Positions 18,139-30,957 of a stretch of 40,630 nucleotides of DNA are shown here, in pieces. Every line of letters begins with the position of its first letter. Within the stretch, counting starts at the first letter, position 1. Source of the DNA: Ignavibacteria bacterium. Its GTDB lineage: Bacteria; Bacteroidota; Ignavibacteria; Ignavibacteriales; Melioribacteraceae. The notes under the pieces were generated by a model. That model had not been told where the DNA came from, made no database searches, and worked only from the letters and a program-made list of their open reading frames with translations. The position numbers and the translations under genes were made by a program. Location of the stretch: assembly GCA_016873835.1 (NCBI GenBank), contig VGVY01000009.1, forward strand, positions 1-40,630, read 5' to 3'.

Positions 18139-20268
18139 CTATTCGAATAATATGGAAGCTGAAATAACAATATTTTGGGGTAGACCAGGTTCAAGGTATA
18201 TTGCTTCATTATTAACAATATCAGGATTAATAAATGCCGATGCTGCATATTTGGTATTAAATAAATTATTAATTGTAAGAAATCCTCTTATTTTCAGTTT
18301 ATCTGTAATGCTGATGAAGTCATTAATTCCAATAGTGGAATTAAAAACAAAATAAGAAGGTACTTCAATTTTATTTGCATCATCAACAAAATAACTGCTA
18401 ACCGAATTAAGAGAAAAATTTAGAAAAAAGTCCTTCAAGAATTTGGGTTGAAATGATAAACCAATGTTATAAAAGAATCTAGGGATACCAGCTACTGTAT
18501 TATTCTTGTAATTTGCAAATGAGTTCGGTTTAAAATAATGAACTGAATCAACCAAATATTCATTGTATTTGTTATCAGAATAAGTGAAAGCACCTTTCAA
18601 AGAGATTCCTTGTTCAAATTCAAGTTCTGCACCTAATTCAATTCCAATTCGAGATGTTTTACCGGCTGTAAAATAAAATCTGCCACCGCGATACGGTATA
18701 ATATCATTTTTGATATCAATATAATATCCAGCAACATCAATTGAAGCTGTTTTTAGAAGATTCGAATTGCTCACAGCTAACAAATGTTTTGTACCTACTT
18801 CATAAGTTGTAGAAATGATTGGTTCGAGCAACGGATTTAATAAGTATATTTGATCTTGACTATAAGTGCTTGACGGATCAGTTTCATTTCCGGCTGGAAC
18901 TTCAGTACCTCCGCCAATATTTGCATAAATACTTTGTGTTTGATTGAATCGATATGTTAATCCAAACTTAGGAGTAAGTTTGGAGAATGATTTGCTTTGC
19001 AACCCATAGGATGAAATTAGAAAGTCTTCACTGTAATAAGTTATATTATCATAACGGAGTCCAGCAATAAAACTAATCTTTTCATTAAATATAATTTCAT
19101 CTTGAATAAAAGCACCAAAATTATTAGCGCCTTCACGTTTATTTGCTCTTAATACAGAACCTCTTTGATTTGTAGAAGATAAACTATAAAATAAAATTGC
19201 TCCATCCTGATATGCTTCATCAATTCCAATAATTAAATGATTCTTTAATTCATTTGAGAATTTCGAATTATTCTTGAACATAATATTTCCGCCAATATGA
19301 TATCGTGTAAAATCACGGAATGTTCCTCTTTCTGATCTTTGTAAAAATTTTGGAGATGCAAACAACATTCCAGATATCTGATTAGCTTCATCAAAATTAT
19401 GTTCTATAGTGAATCCAATTCTACCTAGTCGGTTATGTCTTCGTTCGTCTCGTTGAGAATAAATTGCATTTGCTTGTTGAGGATTGAGTTCAAATTGCTT
19501 TTTAGTTAGTGGACCAGGTACGTGGAAAAGATTTGAACCAGCTAATACAAGTACACTAAATTTTGTAATGTCCTCAATATTTGATGTAATTCCAAAATTA
19601 AAAAGAGTCCTATAACTGCTTGAATGTTCCCTCCATCCAGAAAAATTTGTATTAGTTAGTGTTGCAAAAATTTTACCATATGTAATTGGAGTAACCGCCT
19701 TTGTTTGAAAACCATAAAAACCAAAACTACCTGAAAGACTTTTTATTGAGAGATTATAATTATTACTTGACGGAATTGTTGAGAGATTGACTATTCCACC
19801 AGAAGCATTACCCCAAATTGCAGAAGCATTGGATCGGATAACCTCCATATTATCTACTGCCCCCAAATCAATCAAATCAAATGATGTTCTTCCATCAGGT
19901 TCCGTTTCTGGGATTCCGTCAACCATAATTCGAATTCCCCTCGTTGTACCATAGTTAGATCTATCACCGGCTCCTCGTGCGCCAAAACCTCTAATTACCA
20001 AACGAATATCTTGATTACCAGCTCGCGTTTGAGCCAGAACTCCAGGTACAGAAGTTAATATTTCATCAAGTCCGTAACCTCGCAAATTCATCAATGATTT
20101 TTCATTGATAAGTGTAACTGCATATGGAATTTCGATTATGTTTTCAGGGTATCTTGTAGCAGAAACTGTTATTTGATTCATTTCATATTTTAAAGTATCC
20201 GGGTAAATAAATACTTGTGAATAAATTGAGTTTGATAGTAGAATTAATAAATAAATTATCTTCTTCAT
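18139..20268 (-). CDS. TonB-dependent outer-membrane receptor
   Basis: Outer-membrane active transporter energised by TonB. The 709-residue protein has a signal peptide (MKKIIYLLILLSNSIYSQ) and a plug domain at about 30-150 with QITVSATRYPENI as a likely TonB-box region, the LDEILTSVPGV segment and the VMVDGIP-type block. A 22-strand-type barrel follows. The plug and barrel pattern is FecA-like, which hints at a ferric siderophore or citrate ligand, but no neighbour supports a substrate. The last residues are ILFE, so the usual terminal aromatic is one residue in from the end. It ends in a TAG stop, showing that UAG is an ordinary stop here. No clear promoter in the 97-base upstream gap. Confidence 0.88.
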   Translation of the reverse strand: MKKIIYLLILLSNSIYSQVFIYPDTLKYEMNQITVSATRYPENIIEIPYAVTLINEKSLMNLRGYGLDEILTSVPGVLAQTRAGNQDIRLVIRGFGARGAGDRSNYGTTRGIRIMVDGIPETEPDGRTSFDLIDLGAVDNMEVIRSNASAIWGNASGGIVNLSTIPSSNNYNLSIKSLSGSFGFYGFQTKAVTPITYGKIFATLTNTNFSGWREHSSSYRTLFNFGITSNIEDITKFSVLVLAGSNLFHVPGPLTKKQFELNPQQANAIYSQRDERRHNRLGRIGFTIEHNFDEANQISGMLFASPKFLQRSERGTFRDFTRYHIGGNIMFKNNSKFSNELKNHLIIGIDEAYQDGAILFYSLSSTNQRGSVLRANKREGANNFGAFIQDEIIFNEKISFIAGLRYDNITYYSEDFLISSYGLQSKSFSKLTPKFGLTYRFNQTQSIYANIGGGTEVPAGNETDPSSTYSQDQIYLLNPLLEPIISTTYEVGTKHLLAVSNSNLLKTASIDVAGYYIDIKNDIIPYRGGRFYFTAGKTSRIGIELGAELEFEQGISLKGAFTYSDNKYNEYLVDSVHYFKPNSFANYKNNTVAGIPRFFYNIGLSFQPKFLKDFFLNFSLNSVSSYFVDDANKIEVPSYFVFNSTIGINDFISITDKLKIRGFLTINNLFNTKYAASAFINPDIVNNEAIYLEPGLPQNIVISASILFE

Positions 20269-24964: not shown

Positions 24965-26119
24965 TTATTTTAATACTTCATAAAGAACTTTCAACACTTC
25001 ATCAAGATCTTCATAACTAATTACTAATGGCGGTAATAGTCTTAGTACCGTAGTTCCAGCTGGTAATGAAACGATTCCTTTTTCAAGTAGTTCAATTATT
25101 ACTGGTTGAGATTTATCTTTTAGCTCAATTCCAATCATAAGACCGAGTACACGAATTTCTCTTACTTTAGATAACTCAAAACTTTCTAATTTATTTTTAA
25201 AATATTTTCCCTTTGCTTCAGCTTGTTCCCAAAGTTTTTCTTCCACCATAAATTCAATTGATGCATAACCAGCTGCACAAGCTAATGGATTACCTCCAAA
25301 CGTTGAACCGTGTTTGCTCTTTTCAACTTTAATTTTTTCTGAACAAAGCAAAGCACCCATTGGAAAACCGCCAGCCATTGATTTTGCTATCGTCATCATA
25401 TCGGCTTCTATCCCAACATGCTCAATTGCAAACATTTTTCCAGTTCTGCAAAATCCAGTCTGTATTTCATCTATTATAAGCAAAATCCCATTTTCATCAC
25501 ACAATTTTCGAACTTTTTCAAAATATTCTTTTTGACCTAAATTAATACCTCCTTCACCTTGAACAATTTCTAAAATAATACCGGCTGTATCACTATCAAC
25601 AGCTTCAGCTAACTTTTCAAAATTATTAAAAGGGACGAAAGAAAAACCGGGAACAAGGGGTTCAAAACCTTCACGATATTCTTTTTTAAAAGTAGCACTT
25701 AAGGCGCCGTATGTTCTTCCATGAAATCCTTTCATAGCAGCGATAAATTTCGATTTCTTTGTGTTTAATCTTGCAAATTTAATTGCAGCTTCAATTGCCT
25801 CTGTCCCGGAATTTGTTAGGAATGCTTTTGTTAAATTTCTTGGAGTGATAGAAAAAAGTTTTTCAAGGAATTTTGCTTTTGTGTCGTTGTAAAATGTATT
25901 AGCACAAGTAATAAGTGTCGCTGCTTGATTAGAGATTGCCTCAACTAATTTATCATTCGCATGACCAATATTCGCAACACTAATTCCCGAGGCCATATCG
26001 ATAAATTCCTTTCCATTCTCATCCCAAAGTCGAGCACCTTTCCCCTTAACAATTACTATATCTCTTCTTGGATATACGTCTACTTCGTATTGTTCAATAA
26101 TTGATTTATAGTTACTCAT
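24965..26119 (-). CDS. lysJ: LysW-gamma-L-lysine aminotransferase (LysJ/ArgD family)
   Basis: Class III PLP aminotransferase of 384 residues. In the LysW pathway it transaminates LysW-aminoadipate semialdehyde to LysW-lysine. Visible residues are the phosphate-binding NSGTEAIE (103-110), PLP-stacking GFHGRTYGAL near 131-140, D217 in LLIIDEIQTG, PLP Lys246 in IAKSMAGGFPMGA, and STFGGNPLACAAG. By sequence alone it could be an acetylornithine aminotransferase. Position after lysZ in a cluster with lysW decides the call. It may serve arginine synthesis as well. Confidence 0.85.
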   Translation of the reverse strand: MSNYKSIIEQYEVDVYPRRDIVIVKGKGARLWDENGKEFIDMASGISVANIGHANDKLVEAISNQAATLITCANTFYNDTKAKFLEKLFSITPRNLTKAFLTNSGTEAIEAAIKFARLNTKKSKFIAAMKGFHGRTYGALSATFKKEYREGFEPLVPGFSFVPFNNFEKLAEAVDSDTAGIILEIVQGEGGINLGQKEYFEKVRKLCDENGILLIIDEIQTGFCRTGKMFAIEHVGIEADMMTIAKSMAGGFPMGALLCSEKIKVEKSKHGSTFGGNPLACAAGYASIEFMVEEKLWEQAEAKGKYFKNKLESFELSKVREIRVLGLMIGIELKDKSQPVIIELLEKGIVSLPAGTTVLRLLPPLVISYEDLDEVLKVLYEVLK

Positions 26120-26171: not shown

Positions 26172-26963
26172 TTAAGAAATAATTGTTCCTTTACCATTTA
26201 ATGCGTCATTAATGGGATGCTCTGTTCTTCCGTCAGATAAAATTACAGTTGAATTTCCAGTTTCAAAAAGTTTTTTAAGTGCAAGAATTTTTCTTTTCAT
26301 TCTTCCTTCAACCTTTTTTTCCATTTCATCAAGCTCAGCTTTTGTTAATTTTGGAACTAAAGAATTAGGATCATTTTTATCAAGCAAGAGTCCGGATTCT
26401 TCTATTAAAGAAATTATTTTATCAGCATTGAATTCTTGTTGAAGCAATGCAATTATGTCGTCATTTTCAGAATTTATTGCAAAATTGTTTTCATCAATCA
26501 ATGGTACTGATAATACCGGAATATATCCGTTAACTAAAAGTAGGTTCAACAAGTGCCTATTTACACTTTTTGGTTTCCCAGAAAAATCTCTTACTATTAA
26601 AGTTTTCCCATCTTCACGAATTTTAATTCCAGCATTGCGTTTACCTTGGATCAATTTTCCATCTAATCCAGAAAGACCTACTGCATTTATTCCTTTCTGC
26701 TGACAAAGTTCCACGATTCTTTTATTTCTCAAACCAGCGTAGGACATCATCATCAAATCAATTGTTTCTTCATTACTCAATACTGAGTCATATCCCGAAA
26801 CGGAAGTAACTATTCTTTTGCTGATATTCAATTTTTTTGCTAGTTCATCACGCAATGCATTTGCACCGTGTACAATAATAAATTTTTCATTTAAAGCAGC
26901 TAAATCAGAAATAATTCCATCAATATTAATTCCTTTTCCGCCGCCAATTTTAATTATAAGCAT
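26172..26963 (-). CDS. lysZ: LysW-aminoadipate kinase LysZ (acetylglutamate kinase family)
   Basis: Phosphorylates the side-chain carboxylate of aminoadipate held on LysW. The 263-residue amino-acid-kinase protein starts with IIKIGGGKG and has the phosphate loop IVHGANALRDEL near 34-45 and the GLSGLDG block near 97-103. The segment KRIVTSVSGYDSV near 49-61 resembles LysZ more than ArgB. The ATG has an SD (CGGAG) at good spacing inside the upstream amidotransferase-like gene and overlaps it by 10 bases. Confidence 0.88.
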   Translation of the reverse strand: MLIIKIGGGKGINIDGIISDLAALNEKFIIVHGANALRDELAKKLNISKRIVTSVSGYDSVLSNEETIDLMMMSYAGLRNKRIVELCQQKGINAVGLSGLDGKLIQGKRNAGIKIREDGKTLIVRDFSGKPKSVNRHLLNLLLVNGYIPVLSVPLIDENNFAINSENDDIIALLQQEFNADKIISLIEESGLLLDKNDPNSLVPKLTKAELDEMEKKVEGRMKRKILALKKLFETGNSTVILSDGRTEHPINDALNGKGTIIS

Positions 26964-27598
26964 TTATACTCCGTTAGACTACCTTGTTCAATAGGATTCC
27001 AATCATTATCATTATCAAGCGGCTCTGAGCTGATTATTATATTAGTATCAGAATATTTTTTGTACAAAGTGAAATACTCCGGCTGTTCATTAAAATATGA
27101 ATATACATAAGTTGCATTTTTTTCGGAAAGAATAATATTCATTGCTCGGATATAAGATGATTTAGCGATTATTATTTTAGTTCCTTTTTTAATAGCATCA
27201 AGAATTTTCCCTTTATCAAATCGTTTTATATAATTAAAAATTTTTTCTGCACCAATTCTTCCTTCTTCCTTTATTTTCACACCTTTAAGTTCACCGTTAA
27301 ATATGAATATATACTTATCATCATAGAACGGCATATTGTTTTCAACAACAATTCCTTCATCACGAAACGCACTTCTGGCATGTGCAATTAATCTTGTTGT
27401 TCTACCAAACTTCGAAAAGTCATCTTCCCAGATTGGCAAAATATTTTTATAATGCTGCCATTTATTATCTTTCCAAAAACTGCAGCCCCAACCATGACCT
27501 TGAAATTCTTTGCTTTCAATAGAGATTTTGGAAAACTTTAACAAAAATTCTGCAATTGAAAATTCATGTTTTGAATTGATATAAAGTAATCTACACAT
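26954..27598 (-). CDS. Class II glutamine amidotransferase-like protein (Ntn glutaminase), in the LysW cluster
   Basis: Free-standing Ntn-type glutaminase domain of 214 residues, related to the YafJ/GATase class II family. The start is fixed by the catalytic nucleophile, Cys2 directly after Met1. Other family blocks are GHGWG (34-38), LIAHARSA (70-77, with R75 as the likely glutamine carboxylate-binding Arg), ENNMPF (86-91) and the oxyanion-type FNGEL (100-104). There is no synthase or ammonia-using domain attached. It lies 81 bases after lysY and overlaps lysZ by 10 bases, so it is part of the lysine operon. Its substrate is unknown. Since the local LysW ends in Gln, deamidation of LysW is a testable possibility. 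Confidence 0.82.
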   Translation of the reverse strand: MCRLLYINSKHEFSIAEFLLKFSKISIESKEFQGHGWGCSFWKDNKWQHYKNILPIWEDDFSKFGRTTRLIAHARSAFRDEGIVVENNMPFYDDKYIFIFNGELKGVKIKEEGRIGAEKIFNYIKRFDKGKILDAIKKGTKIIIAKSSYIRAMNIILSEKNATYVYSYFNEQPEYFTLYKKYSDTNIIISSEPLDNDNDWNPIEQGSLTEYKCL

Positions 27599-27679: not shown

Positions 27680-28726
27680 TTAAATTGGATGTAATCCAGA
27701 AAATTCAAGTCCAGTTTTTTCATCAAATCCATGCATAATATTAAACGCTTGCAAAGCTTGTCCAGCAGCACCCTTCATTAAATTATCGATAGCACTAATA
27801 ACTACCAGCCGATTTGAGAATTCATCCTTCTTAAAACCAATGTCACAATAATTTGTACCGAATAATAATTTTGGTTCTGGATAGCGATAAATTCCATCAC
27901 TCTCTTTAACAATTCTAATAAAAGGTTCCTCTCCATAAGAATCGCGGTAAATTTTCCAAATCTCCTTTTCGCTCAAGTTATCTTTTAGAAAAACATGCGA
28001 TGTTGCAAGCAGACCTCTTACCAAATCAATTGCAGTAGCTGAAAAATGTATATTAATTTTTTTATTAAATGATAATTCTTGAATTATTTCTGCGGTATGT
28101 CGATGTTGCGTTGGTGCATAGGATCGAACTACTCCGCTTCTTTCCGGATGATGTGATCCTTCATTAATTTTATTTCCTCCTTCGCTTGAACCAACTTTTA
28201 CTTCAACAACAGTTCTTTCTTCATCAGCTAATCCATTTTTGTATAGAGGATATAATGCCAAAATACTGGCAGTTGCATTACATCCAGCGCTTGAAATATA
28301 ATTTGCGGTTTTCATTTCTGAACGATGAAGTTCTGGAATGCCGTAAACAAATTCTTTCAATAGTTCTGGCCGGGCGTGTTTATGTCCATACCATTTTTCA
28401 TATTCTGATGGATCTGATAATCGGAAATCAGCACTAAGGTCAATTATCTTGGGTGCTAATTTATTAAAAGTATCAATTTTATTTTGAGAACTGTTATGCG
28501 GAAGACACAAAAATAAAAGATCGCATTCTTGAATTTCAGATATTGAACAAAATTTCATTAATGTTGTTTTTCGTAAGTTAGGATGTATTTTATGAATAAA
28601 TTTGCCGGTATTGCTTTCAGAAGTAATTTGTTTTAACTCAACATTTGGATGAAATAGTAGAAGTCTAATCAATTCACCACCGGTATAACCAGAACCTCCT
28701 ACAATTGAGACTCTTATTTTATCCAT
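27680..28726 (-). CDS. lysY: LysW-aminoadipyl-phosphate reductase LysY (ArgC family)
   Basis: NADPH-dependent reductase forming LysW-aminoadipate semialdehyde. It has the N-terminal Rossmann motif GGSGYTGGE (10-18) and catalytic Cys149 in [10 protein letters not shown] longer frame begins at 28741, but the ATG at 28726 has a correctly spaced SD (GAGG) and overlaps lysX by only eight bases, so it is preferred and gives 348 residues. The family also includes N-acetylglutamyl-phosphate reductase, and the cluster context supports LysY. Confidence 0.88.
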
Positions 28727-29570
28727 TATCACCCTCAACAACTTTTAAAACATAATCAACCATTTTTTGAGGAATATTAACTCCGGTTGTGTCAATACTA
28801 TTTTTGTATTCCATTGTATAGTTTACTTCATTAACCATTAATCCATTTGACGTTTCGAATAAATCAATCGCAACTATACCACCTCCAACAGCTTTAGCAG
28901 CTTTTACTGAAATCTCATTCAATTCATCTGATACTACACATTTGGATGCAACACCTCCACGAGCTGTATTTGTAATCCAGTGTGGCGATGTTCTATAAAT
29001 TGCAGCTATGCAATTGTCACCAACAATAAAACTACGAATATCTCTTCCGCTTTTCTCAACATATTTTTGGATATAAAAAATTGAGTGATGATATGAACCT
29101 AAAATTGTTTTGTGTTCTAAAATAGCTTCAGCTGCATCTTTGTCATTTATTTTAGAAAGTAATCTCCCCCAGGAGCCAACTGCCGGTTTGAGAACTACTG
29201 GATATCCCATTTCTTCAATTGCCTTTAGAGCTGATTCTTCAGTGAACGCAACACGAACTTCTGGTTGAGGAACTTTATTTTCGGCTAATGCCACAGAGGT
29301 TAATAATTTATCACCACAGATTGTAGCAACTTTATACGAATTGATGCATTTTATTCCGAAAGATTCATACAATCTTAATGCATGAAGCGCACGTGAGTGG
29401 TTAATACATCTTTCAATTACAACATCAATGTCATAGCTTCCATTTCCCAAACTGAAAGTAATTTCTCTATCGTCCATTAAAACTATTTCAATTCCTTTCC
29501 TTGATCTAAGCTCATCAATAAGAAATTTTTCATCTTTGCGAATTAAAGAATGAAGCAAACCAATTTTCAT
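28719..29570 (-). CDS. lysX: LysW-alpha-aminoadipate ligase LysX (RimK-like ATP-grasp)
   Basis: ATP-grasp ligase that joins the amino group of alpha-aminoadipate (or glutamate, in ArgX-type enzymes) to the C-terminal residue of LysW. The 283-residue protein has an N-terminal pre-ATP-grasp domain, then [14 protein letters not shown] near 127-140, the [15 protein letters not shown] region near 170-184, and metal-binding IDLFET and [11 protein letters not shown] near 248-275. The ATG is preceded by an SD (GGAGG). In known systems the ligase needs a terminal Glu carboxylate on LysW, which conflicts with the Gln end of the local LysW. Confidence 0.9.
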
Positions 29571-29608: not shown

Positions 29609-30766
29609 CTATTTATTGTAAGTTTTGTGATGCTTAACTGCGTCGACGATATGTTTCAATTCGGAAAGGTCTACTGTTCGTCCTCGTTGACCAACGAACT
29701 TAACTTCTTTTAATACTTCCATTTGATGTTCATCATCCATTGATTCTTCTCCAACAAGTTTAAGTGCATATCTTAATGAAGCGATTCCAGACATTTGATC
29801 GAGTGCAAAAGATCTTTCACGACCAAGCAGATTTGGATCTAAACTTTCATAATGCATTGGATTAATCGACGCAGCATGAGTATGTACTCCAGCACAGTGA
29901 GTAAATGCATTTTTACCAGTAATGGGATAATTAGCTGGTATTGGAATTCCTGAATGTTTGCTTACCAGATCATAAAGTTGCGTTAATTTGCTTATGTTCC
30001 ACCTTTGTTCGTTATGATCAACAGAAAGTACAACCAATAACTCAGCAAGATCAACAATACCGGCTCTTTCACCAAGTCCGAGTGCGGCAGCATCAATAAT
30101 ATCTACACCAGCCCGGTAAGCATCTAAGGCATTTGCCAACGCAAGCCCCCTATCATTATGGCAGTGAACTGCAACTTTCGGAAACAATTTTCTCTTTGCA
30201 AATTCATCTTTAAGATTGGATATATAATCATACATACTTCTGTTTGTACCTGGTACCATATAACCAGTAGTATCTGCAACACTTATTATATCAGCACCAG
30301 CTTCAACGGCAGCCGAAGCAGCTTTAACAACATTTTCAAATTGGGAGCGAACTGTATCTTCCGGAGTATAACGAATCAATAAATTTGGTTTTTGACTTTT
30401 AGCATACTTTATTACATCTGTAATCTGAGTTATTGCGGTTTCAAGATCTTTCTTAAAAACAGTTTGAAGTCTTTCATCAGATACACAATAAAATATTCCA
30501 ATAAAATCTACTTCACACTCTAACGCAAGATCAATATCATTTTTAAGAGATCGGGAATGTGCTCCAACAATCGATTTAAAACCTTTTTGTGCTATTGATT
30601 TTACAGCGGCATGAATTTCTGGTGTAACCACTGGATGACCAGCTTCAATGATATCCACACCAATTTCATTTAGAAGATTTGCAATAGCAAGTTTAATGTG
30701 CTTATCAAAATAAACACCAGGAGTTTGTTCTCCTTCGCGCAGAGTTGAATCTAAAACCCAGACCAA
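29609..30766 (-). CDS. Homocitrate synthase (HCS/NifV-LeuA family)
   Basis: Condenses acetyl-CoA with 2-oxoglutarate to homocitrate, the first committed step of the aminoadipate lysine pathway. The 385-residue TIM-barrel enzyme has DSTLREGEQ at 6-14 (metal ligand D6) and HCHNDRG at 201-207 (metal ligands H201 and H203). A TTG start directly abuts the lysW stop and no downstream start would keep the catalytic DSTLREGEQ, so TTG is required. The cluster argues for homocitrate over isopropylmalate or citramalate synthesis. It ends with a TAG stop. Confidence 0.85.
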
Positions 30767-30934
30767 CTACTGACCCCAGTCTTCTTCTTCTTGAGGAGCT
30801 TCATTAAGTTTTGGAGGATCAAGTGAGATTACTTCAAGTTCTGTTCCACACTCAGGGCATTCGAGCAATTCGCCTACTACTGTTCCCTCTTGCAAATTTA
30901 TGCTTGCATCACAAACTGGACATTCAGCTTTCAT
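30767..30934 (-). CDS. lysW: LysW amino-group carrier protein, with C-terminal Gln
   Basis: Small carrier on which alpha-aminoadipate is held during conversion to lysine. The 55-residue acidic protein has two zinc-binding pairs, C5/C8 (CPVC) and C26/C29 (CPEC), and the family's acidic tail. The tail reads EEEDWGQ, whereas the known family ends in EDWGE and uses that Glu side chain for attachment. Codons at the end are GAC TGG GGT CAG TAG. UAG is a normal stop elsewhere in the window (homocitrate synthase, TonB receptor). The ATG at 30934 follows GGAG by a few bases. It is the first gene of the lysine operon. Confidence 0.9.
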   Translation of the reverse strand: MKAECPVCDASINLQEGTVVGELLECPECGTELEVISLDPPKLNEAPQEEEDWGQ

Positions 30935-30957
30935 ATTCACTCCAAAAAAAAGTTTTG

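Follow-up and report, generated by a model that had tools for sequence, protein, structure and literature searches.

A candidate EgtC-like hydrolase in place of LysK and the use of glutamine-ended LysW carriers

The window analyzed here, a stretch of 40,630 nucleotides from contig VGVY01000009.1 of an Ignavibacteria bacterium (assembly GCA_016873835.1), contains a lysW operon in which lysW is followed on the same strand by the genes for a homocitrate synthase, LysX, LysY, an EgtC-like hydrolase, LysZ, and LysJ. The operon contains no lysK gene. Its features are as follows:

30767..30940, minus strand: lysW, amino-group carrier protein (sequence; NCBIfam TIGR01206 lysW, 76.5 bits, cut-off 53.2; Pfam Zn_ribbon_LysW, PF21344, 65.7 bits)
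30770..30772, minus strand: C-terminal codon CAG (Gln), a Glu codon in characterised LysW (alignment; relatives GAA/GAG)
29609..30766, minus strand: homocitrate synthase-like protein, LysS/HCS (TIGR02146, PF00682; TTG start)
28719..29570, minus strand: lysX, ATP-grasp ligase loading alpha-aminoadipate on LysW (TIGR02144, 351.9 bits, cut-off 275.6; GSWGR kept)
27680..28726, minus strand: lysY, [LysW]-aminoadipyl phosphate reductase of the ArgC family (TIGR01850)
26954..27598, minus strand: class II glutamine-amidotransferase-like Ntn amidohydrolase (EgtC-like), candidate LysW-gamma-Glu amidase (PF13230, 35.7 bits; TIGR03442, 54.7 bits, under the cut-off; AlphaFold model)
26172..26963, minus strand: lysZ, [LysW]-aminoadipate kinase (NF010659, 254.4 bits, cut-off 223)
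24965..26119, minus strand: lysJ, [LysW]-aminoadipate semialdehyde transaminase (TIGR00707, over the cut-off; NF042418, 443.7 bits)

The lysW gene, for which the first-pass annotation had given no strand, runs from 30940 to 30767 including the stop codon TAG at 30769-30767, and likely starts with the ATG at 30934 or the GTG at 30940, giving the protein (V/M)NMKAECPVCDASINLQEGTVVGELLECPECGTELEVISLDPPKLNEAPQEEEDWGQ. This protein has the zinc-ribbon domain with two CxxC motifs and the EDWG tail of its family, and its gene is clustered with lysX, lysY, lysZ, and lysJ. The last codons, GAC TGG GGT CAG TAG, yield the tail EAPQEEEDWGQ, which bore out the original reading of an EDWGQ end and places an encoded Gln where Glu is the attachment residue. 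In characterised systems, LysX links the C-terminal Glu of LysW, through its gamma-carboxyl, to the amino group of the substrate; the E54A mutant of Natrinema is an auxotroph (PMC10433800).

The end of lysW is not a frameshift artefact, since the homocitrate synthase ORF follows directly after the stop codon, and the TTG start of this ORF at window position 30766, which abuts the stop, makes translational coupling of the two ORFs probable. The genome is 98.8% complete and holds a single lysW, so there is no Glu-ended back-up; a second intact Glu-ended copy, which the first-pass annotation had named as fatal to the Gln reading, was looked for without success, and that reading stands. A sequencing or assembly error was rejected as the source of Gln, because Gln recurs in several independent related lineages as well as in complete and isolate genomes elsewhere, and the sequence comparison confirmed the Gln end as a real state of the encoded carrier. 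No riboswitch or other known RNA was found at gathering scores between positions 20000 and 40630.

Within the same family-level group, lysW was carried by 44 of 79 genomes, and the surrounding regions were read. The intact clusters ended LysW with Glu or Gln and with no third residue, Gln being the end here and in ten more genomes from at least seven further genera, and Glu in the rest. The objection that close relatives would all end in Glu was half true, as the relatives mix the two residues, and mixed ends occurred within single genera (g1, g3, g5). On a family tree built on HCS, LysX, and LysY (42 rows), at least eight changes between Glu and Gln were counted, with the codons GAA/GAG and CAA/CAG one base apart; the earlier suggestion of a one-base variant was correct about the single-base difference from GAR to CAR, and the many recurrences speak against its being an error. 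Every intact cluster, with either tail, followed the order lysW-HCS-lysX-lysY-hydrolase-lysZ-lysJ. Odd tails (EEEDWDE, DEDWDD, none) were seen only in L085 (G261), L086 (G306), and L087 (G288), where most of the operon was lost and a lysW remnant lay beside lysJ in two of them, possibly through decay or reuse. Considering that such tails occurred only where most of the operon was lost, the last residue of LysW is, on this comparative evidence, under constraint, with Glu and Gln equivalent.

The GSWGR motif of LysX, which we take to be the motif recognising the EDWGE tail of LysW, was kept with Glu- and Gln-ended carriers in 111 of 112 complete sequences, and because it is kept in both tail groups, LysX presumably still needs Glu on LysW in this organism. 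The first-pass annotation was right that Gln is not directly activatable. Its proposal of loading through the alpha-carboxylate is unlikely, because the GSWGR motif is kept and intact clusters tolerate no last residue of LysW other than Glu or Gln.

Neither the hydrolase gene nor the missing LysK had figured in that annotation. Since its score lies far under the EgtC equivalog cut-off (TIGR03442, 218.65 bits), the hydrolase is, by this measure, a separate family that is a relative of EgtC and not EgtC itself. Its AlphaFold model (pLDDT 96) had EgtC as the closest solved structure (Foldseek E 1e-13, TM 0.83; Z 26.1, 1.8 A over 201 residues), followed by the glutaminase domains of GlmS (Z 22) and PurF, and displays an Ntn hydrolase fold rather than the glutamine-synthetase fold of Dop. 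Together with the fold, the N-terminal Cys, the Arg, and the Asn-Gly of the class II glutamine amidotransferase/Ntn hydrolase superfamily are in place. Sequence comparison of 35 diverse hydrolases showed M1-C2-R3, H73-x-R75-S76, N101-G102, G113, and G116 to be invariant, and Cys2, Arg75, Asn101, and Gly102 were also invariant in 80 hydrolases from genomes with either LysW tail.

E. coli YafJ was used as the comparison sequence for the Asp of the alpha-amino clamp, and its GETDSEKAF aligned with GRIGAEKIF of the hydrolase in both MAFFT and hhalign. This Asp, presumably the residue to which the alpha-amino group of free Gln is bound in class II enzymes that use glutamine, is replaced by Gly116 in all readable sequences of the 80 hydrolases, with Glu and Gln tails alike, and the Arg is kept; the hydrolase thereby departs from YafJ and GlmS and lacks the Asp with which free-glutamine class II amidotransferases bind the alpha-amino group. 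Because the clamp Asp is Gly while the Arg is kept, the glutamyl group of the substrate would expose its alpha-carboxylate but lack a free alpha-amino group, from which we infer a protein C-terminus. EgtC, the ergothioneine amidohydrolase, removes a glutamyl residue from a gamma-glutamyl substrate by amide hydrolysis (PMC9103826). With EgtC and the class II amidohydrolases the hydrolase shares the fold, Cys2, the Arg and Asn-Gly motifs, and, as proposed here, gamma-glutamyl amide hydrolysis, whereas it is ~20% identical to EgtC, is linked to lysW, and would act on the C-terminus of a protein.

In the 57 relatives searched, the hydrolase was found in 17 and tracked the lys cluster, being absent from genomes without the cluster. 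LysW is Glu-ended in most of the family members that carry the hydrolase, which refutes the simple rule that the hydrolase means Gln; in the genomes compared, the link runs in one direction, Gln occurring almost always with the hydrolase and not the reverse. For the same reason, deamidation alone cannot be the main job of the enzyme.

LysK was searched with TIGR01902 at a cut-off of 163.1 bits, and on this single model cut-off it was absent from all 41 family genomes, the best match in this genome reaching 90 bits; the controls in Thermus, Deinobacterium, Haloferax, and Sulfolobus were positive. Weaker M20 peptidase matches of 42-101 bits occurred in 29 of the 41 relatives, this genome included, and no M20 match was found at E 1e-10 in 12 of them. 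True LysK scored 240-350 bits in Chloroflexota, where LysK was over the cut-off in 86 of 251 genomes and the hydrolase was present in one genome of the same set (G346), whose LysW is Gln-ended and which has LysK as well. Chloroflexota tails that were read directly (70 genomes, 77 copies) were all EDWGE, and the intact LysW matches in this phylum reached the last position of the model except in G346. Tandem lysW genes in two or three near-identical copies, all Glu-ended, are frequent in Chloroflexota, as at the loci L240 (G431), L216, L217, L226, L234, and L236.

Among the Gln-LysW genomes elsewhere, LysK exceeded the cut-off in only 4 of 46 (G346, G347, G351, and G378). The Borrarchaeota genome G378 holds two systems: contig C172 (L255) carries two Glu-ended lysW with lysX, lysY, lysZ, lysJ, and lysK, and contig C174 (L256) carries a Gln-ended lysW with lysX, lysY, lysZ, lysJ, and the hydrolase, which follows lysJ in the position that lysK takes on C172. 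Each contig is self-consistent, and the two systems in one bin may reflect contamination.

The Gln end is not the single oddity that it first appeared to be. A scan for the pattern AP-xxx-EDWGQ-stop over 84,980 species, with one genome per species, gave 91 stretches, 87 of which were true LysW from some 20 phyla; the pattern is blind to Glu tails and gives no Glu:Gln ratio outside the family. Gammaproteobacteria formed the largest group, followed by Acidobacteriota, Ignavibacteriota, Calditrichota, Gemmatimonadota, and Planctomycetota, and several candidate phyla and archaea were also represented. Complete or isolate genomes with Gln-LysW included Sulfidibacter corallicola (L182), Acanthopleuribacter pedis (L168), and Stygiobacter electus (L141).

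The hydrolase gene lay within a few kilobases of lysW in 48 of the 87 Gln-LysW loci, 30 of 34 others, whose loci were cut short by contig or locus ends, had it at another place in the genome, and three more cases were covered by the family loci. In total, 81 of 85 testable Gln-LysW genomes, which are not independent samples, had the hydrolase; the two cases outside this count (G062 and G293) have clusters cut by contig ends. Where hydrolases on other contigs were read, they again lay between lysY and lysZ, and in Patescibacteria, Dehalococcoidia, and Borrarchaeota the gene instead follows lysJ.

The hydrolase was not detected in the Gln-LysW genomes G331, G333, and G347, perhaps owing to incomplete bins, and sisters of G331 and G347 possess it. 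The strict rule that Gln requires the hydrolase is broken by Sumerlaeia G351 (L166), which has Gln-LysW and an uninterrupted LysK and in whose genome the hydrolase was not found. An error or an incomplete bin could account for this only clean exception, as could a deamidating activity of LysK itself; in the near relative G633 (L305), LysW ends in Glu. At the usual hydrolase site between lysY and lysZ of the Sumerlaeia locus (L166:5948-6639), a CopG-like and then a PIN-like ORF were seen, by eye a toxin-antitoxin pair.

Of the options offered by the first-pass annotation for a Gln-ended carrier, deamidation to Glu is the best supported, because the gene for an EgtC-like gamma-glutamyl amidohydrolase lies in the operon and tracks Gln-LysW across phyla. 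A dual role of the hydrolase is therefore proposed, with a probability of roughly two in three: the enzyme would replace LysK, and the same reaction would turn LysW-Gln into LysW-Glu, so that either codon works. LysW of this organism would be translated as LysW-Gln, the hydrolase would bind its free C-terminal alpha-carboxylate, and the N-terminal Cys would attack the amide in the side chain of the final residue. When the amide is that of the Gln side chain, ammonia would leave and yield LysW-Glu, loadable by LysX; when it is the amide to the finished lysine, lysine would be freed and LysW-Glu regenerated. One enzyme could thus combine LysK replacement with LysW maturation, and the changes from GAA/GAG to CAA/CAG would be near-neutral in every lineage using it. 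The Gln codon and its many independent occurrences, the operon linkage, the absence of LysK, the fold, and the conserved catalytic residues are observations, and from them the two activities and the sequence of steps are inferred. The release role would explain why the hydrolase gene is kept with Glu-ended LysW and why LysK is missing, and the deamidation role would account for Gln being accepted almost exclusively in the presence of the hydrolase and for the two residues flipping freely. Somewhat more cautiously, it is probable that a branch of the LysW pathway in some 20 bacterial and archaeal phyla uses an EgtC-like hydrolase for LysK, which releases lysine (or ornithine) and matures the Gln-ended carrier.

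The system resembles the LysW/ArgW pathway of Thermus, Sulfolobus, and Natrinema in having LysW, LysX, LysY, LysZ, and LysJ in one operon, a zinc-ribbon carrier with an EDWG tail, and the GSWGR motif of LysX, and differs from it in the Gln end, the lack of LysK, and the EgtC-like Ntn hydrolase in the operon. With LysK, the [LysW]-lysine hydrolase of the M20 group, the hydrolase would share the release of lysine from LysW and the place in the pathway, and the presence of the two is complementary, whereas LysK is a metallopeptidase unrelated to an Ntn cysteine hydrolase in fold and chemistry. The comparison with Pup and Dop drawn by the first-pass annotation was apt. Dop carries out both the deamidation of the Gln of Pup and the hydrolysis of the amide to its cargo (PMC7947786). 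As in the mycobacterial system, the C-terminal Gln of the small carrier would be deamidated to Glu before ligation, and in both systems the end is Gln or Glu according to lineage. In contrast, Dop has a glutamine-synthetase fold and uses a nucleotide, the candidate here is an Ntn cysteine hydrolase, and carrier and pathway are unrelated, making the likeness to Dop at most an analogy.

If the dual role is true, the final step for which LysK is missing, in lysine and probably also arginine biosynthesis, would be accounted for in many uncultured bacteria and archaea, which automated pathway tools would now call lysine-incomplete, and a function would be assigned to an unnamed hydrolase family now seen only as generic glutamine amidotransferase. 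It would also be the second case after Pup/Dop in which one hydrolase makes the terminal Gln and Glu of a carrier interchangeable, an independent invention of the same logic in primary metabolism. The open-access papers searched contained no link between LysW and a glutamine amidotransferase or a C-terminal Gln, and the link may be new.

Among the other explanations, the one that survives best, although unlikely, confines the hydrolase to product release as a LysK replacement and leaves LysW-Gln to be deamidated by another enzyme or slowly and spontaneously. Such a division would fit the hydrolase accompanying Glu-ended LysW in most relatives and the Gln-LysW of G351 without a hydrolase, but the association of Gln with the hydrolase holds across phyla (81/85, and the single Chloroflexota case), both reactions are the same chemistry, and linkage points to no other candidate gene. 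Ntn and class II enzymes act via a gamma-glutamyl thioester, and the hydrolase could accordingly be imagined as a transamidase whose Cys forms a thioester with LysW-Gln and passes the acyl group to alpha-aminoadipate, loading the first round without ATP. This would account for the retention of Gln; it is nevertheless quite improbable, as the clusters keep LysX with its GSWGR motif, the regenerated carrier would be LysW-Glu and need LysX anyway, and the same enzyme works with Glu-ended carriers. Improbable to a similar degree is a hydrolase that matures LysW-Gln only, with lysine being freed by a divergent M20 peptidase under the LysK cut-off: sub-cut-off M20 matches do exist in many of these genomes, yet they lie far under true LysK (42-101 against 240-350 bits in Chloroflexota) and are absent from the 12 relatives noted above, and all intact clusters with Glu-ended LysW keep the hydrolase where maturation would be unneeded. 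A Gln-LysW that is non-functional, loaded through its alpha-carboxylate, or the product of a sequencing error can appeal to the data coming from one MAG and to the difference being one base, but is largely refuted and very unlikely, given an operon intact throughout, at least eight lineage changes in the family, occurrence across some 20 phyla with complete and isolate genomes among them, and the restriction of intact clusters to E or Q, with WDE, WDD, or no tail only where the operon is lost.

Several variants of the cluster were observed alongside those that led to the proposed dual role. Long hydrolase frames in four genomes were considered as fusions to another lys protein, and none contained a second lys domain; the extra length is probably an open frame upstream of the start. 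The gammaproteobacterial loci, among them L103, L111, L121, and L124, show the order LysW-LysX-LysY-hydrolase-LysZ-LysJ, mostly with no homocitrate synthase nearby, and to judge from their gene content may serve ornithine/arginine synthesis rather than lysine. In the nanoarchaeotal locus L253 (G357), two different Gln-ended lysW and three LysX-like ligases surround one hydrolase, suggesting a shared lysine/arginine system.
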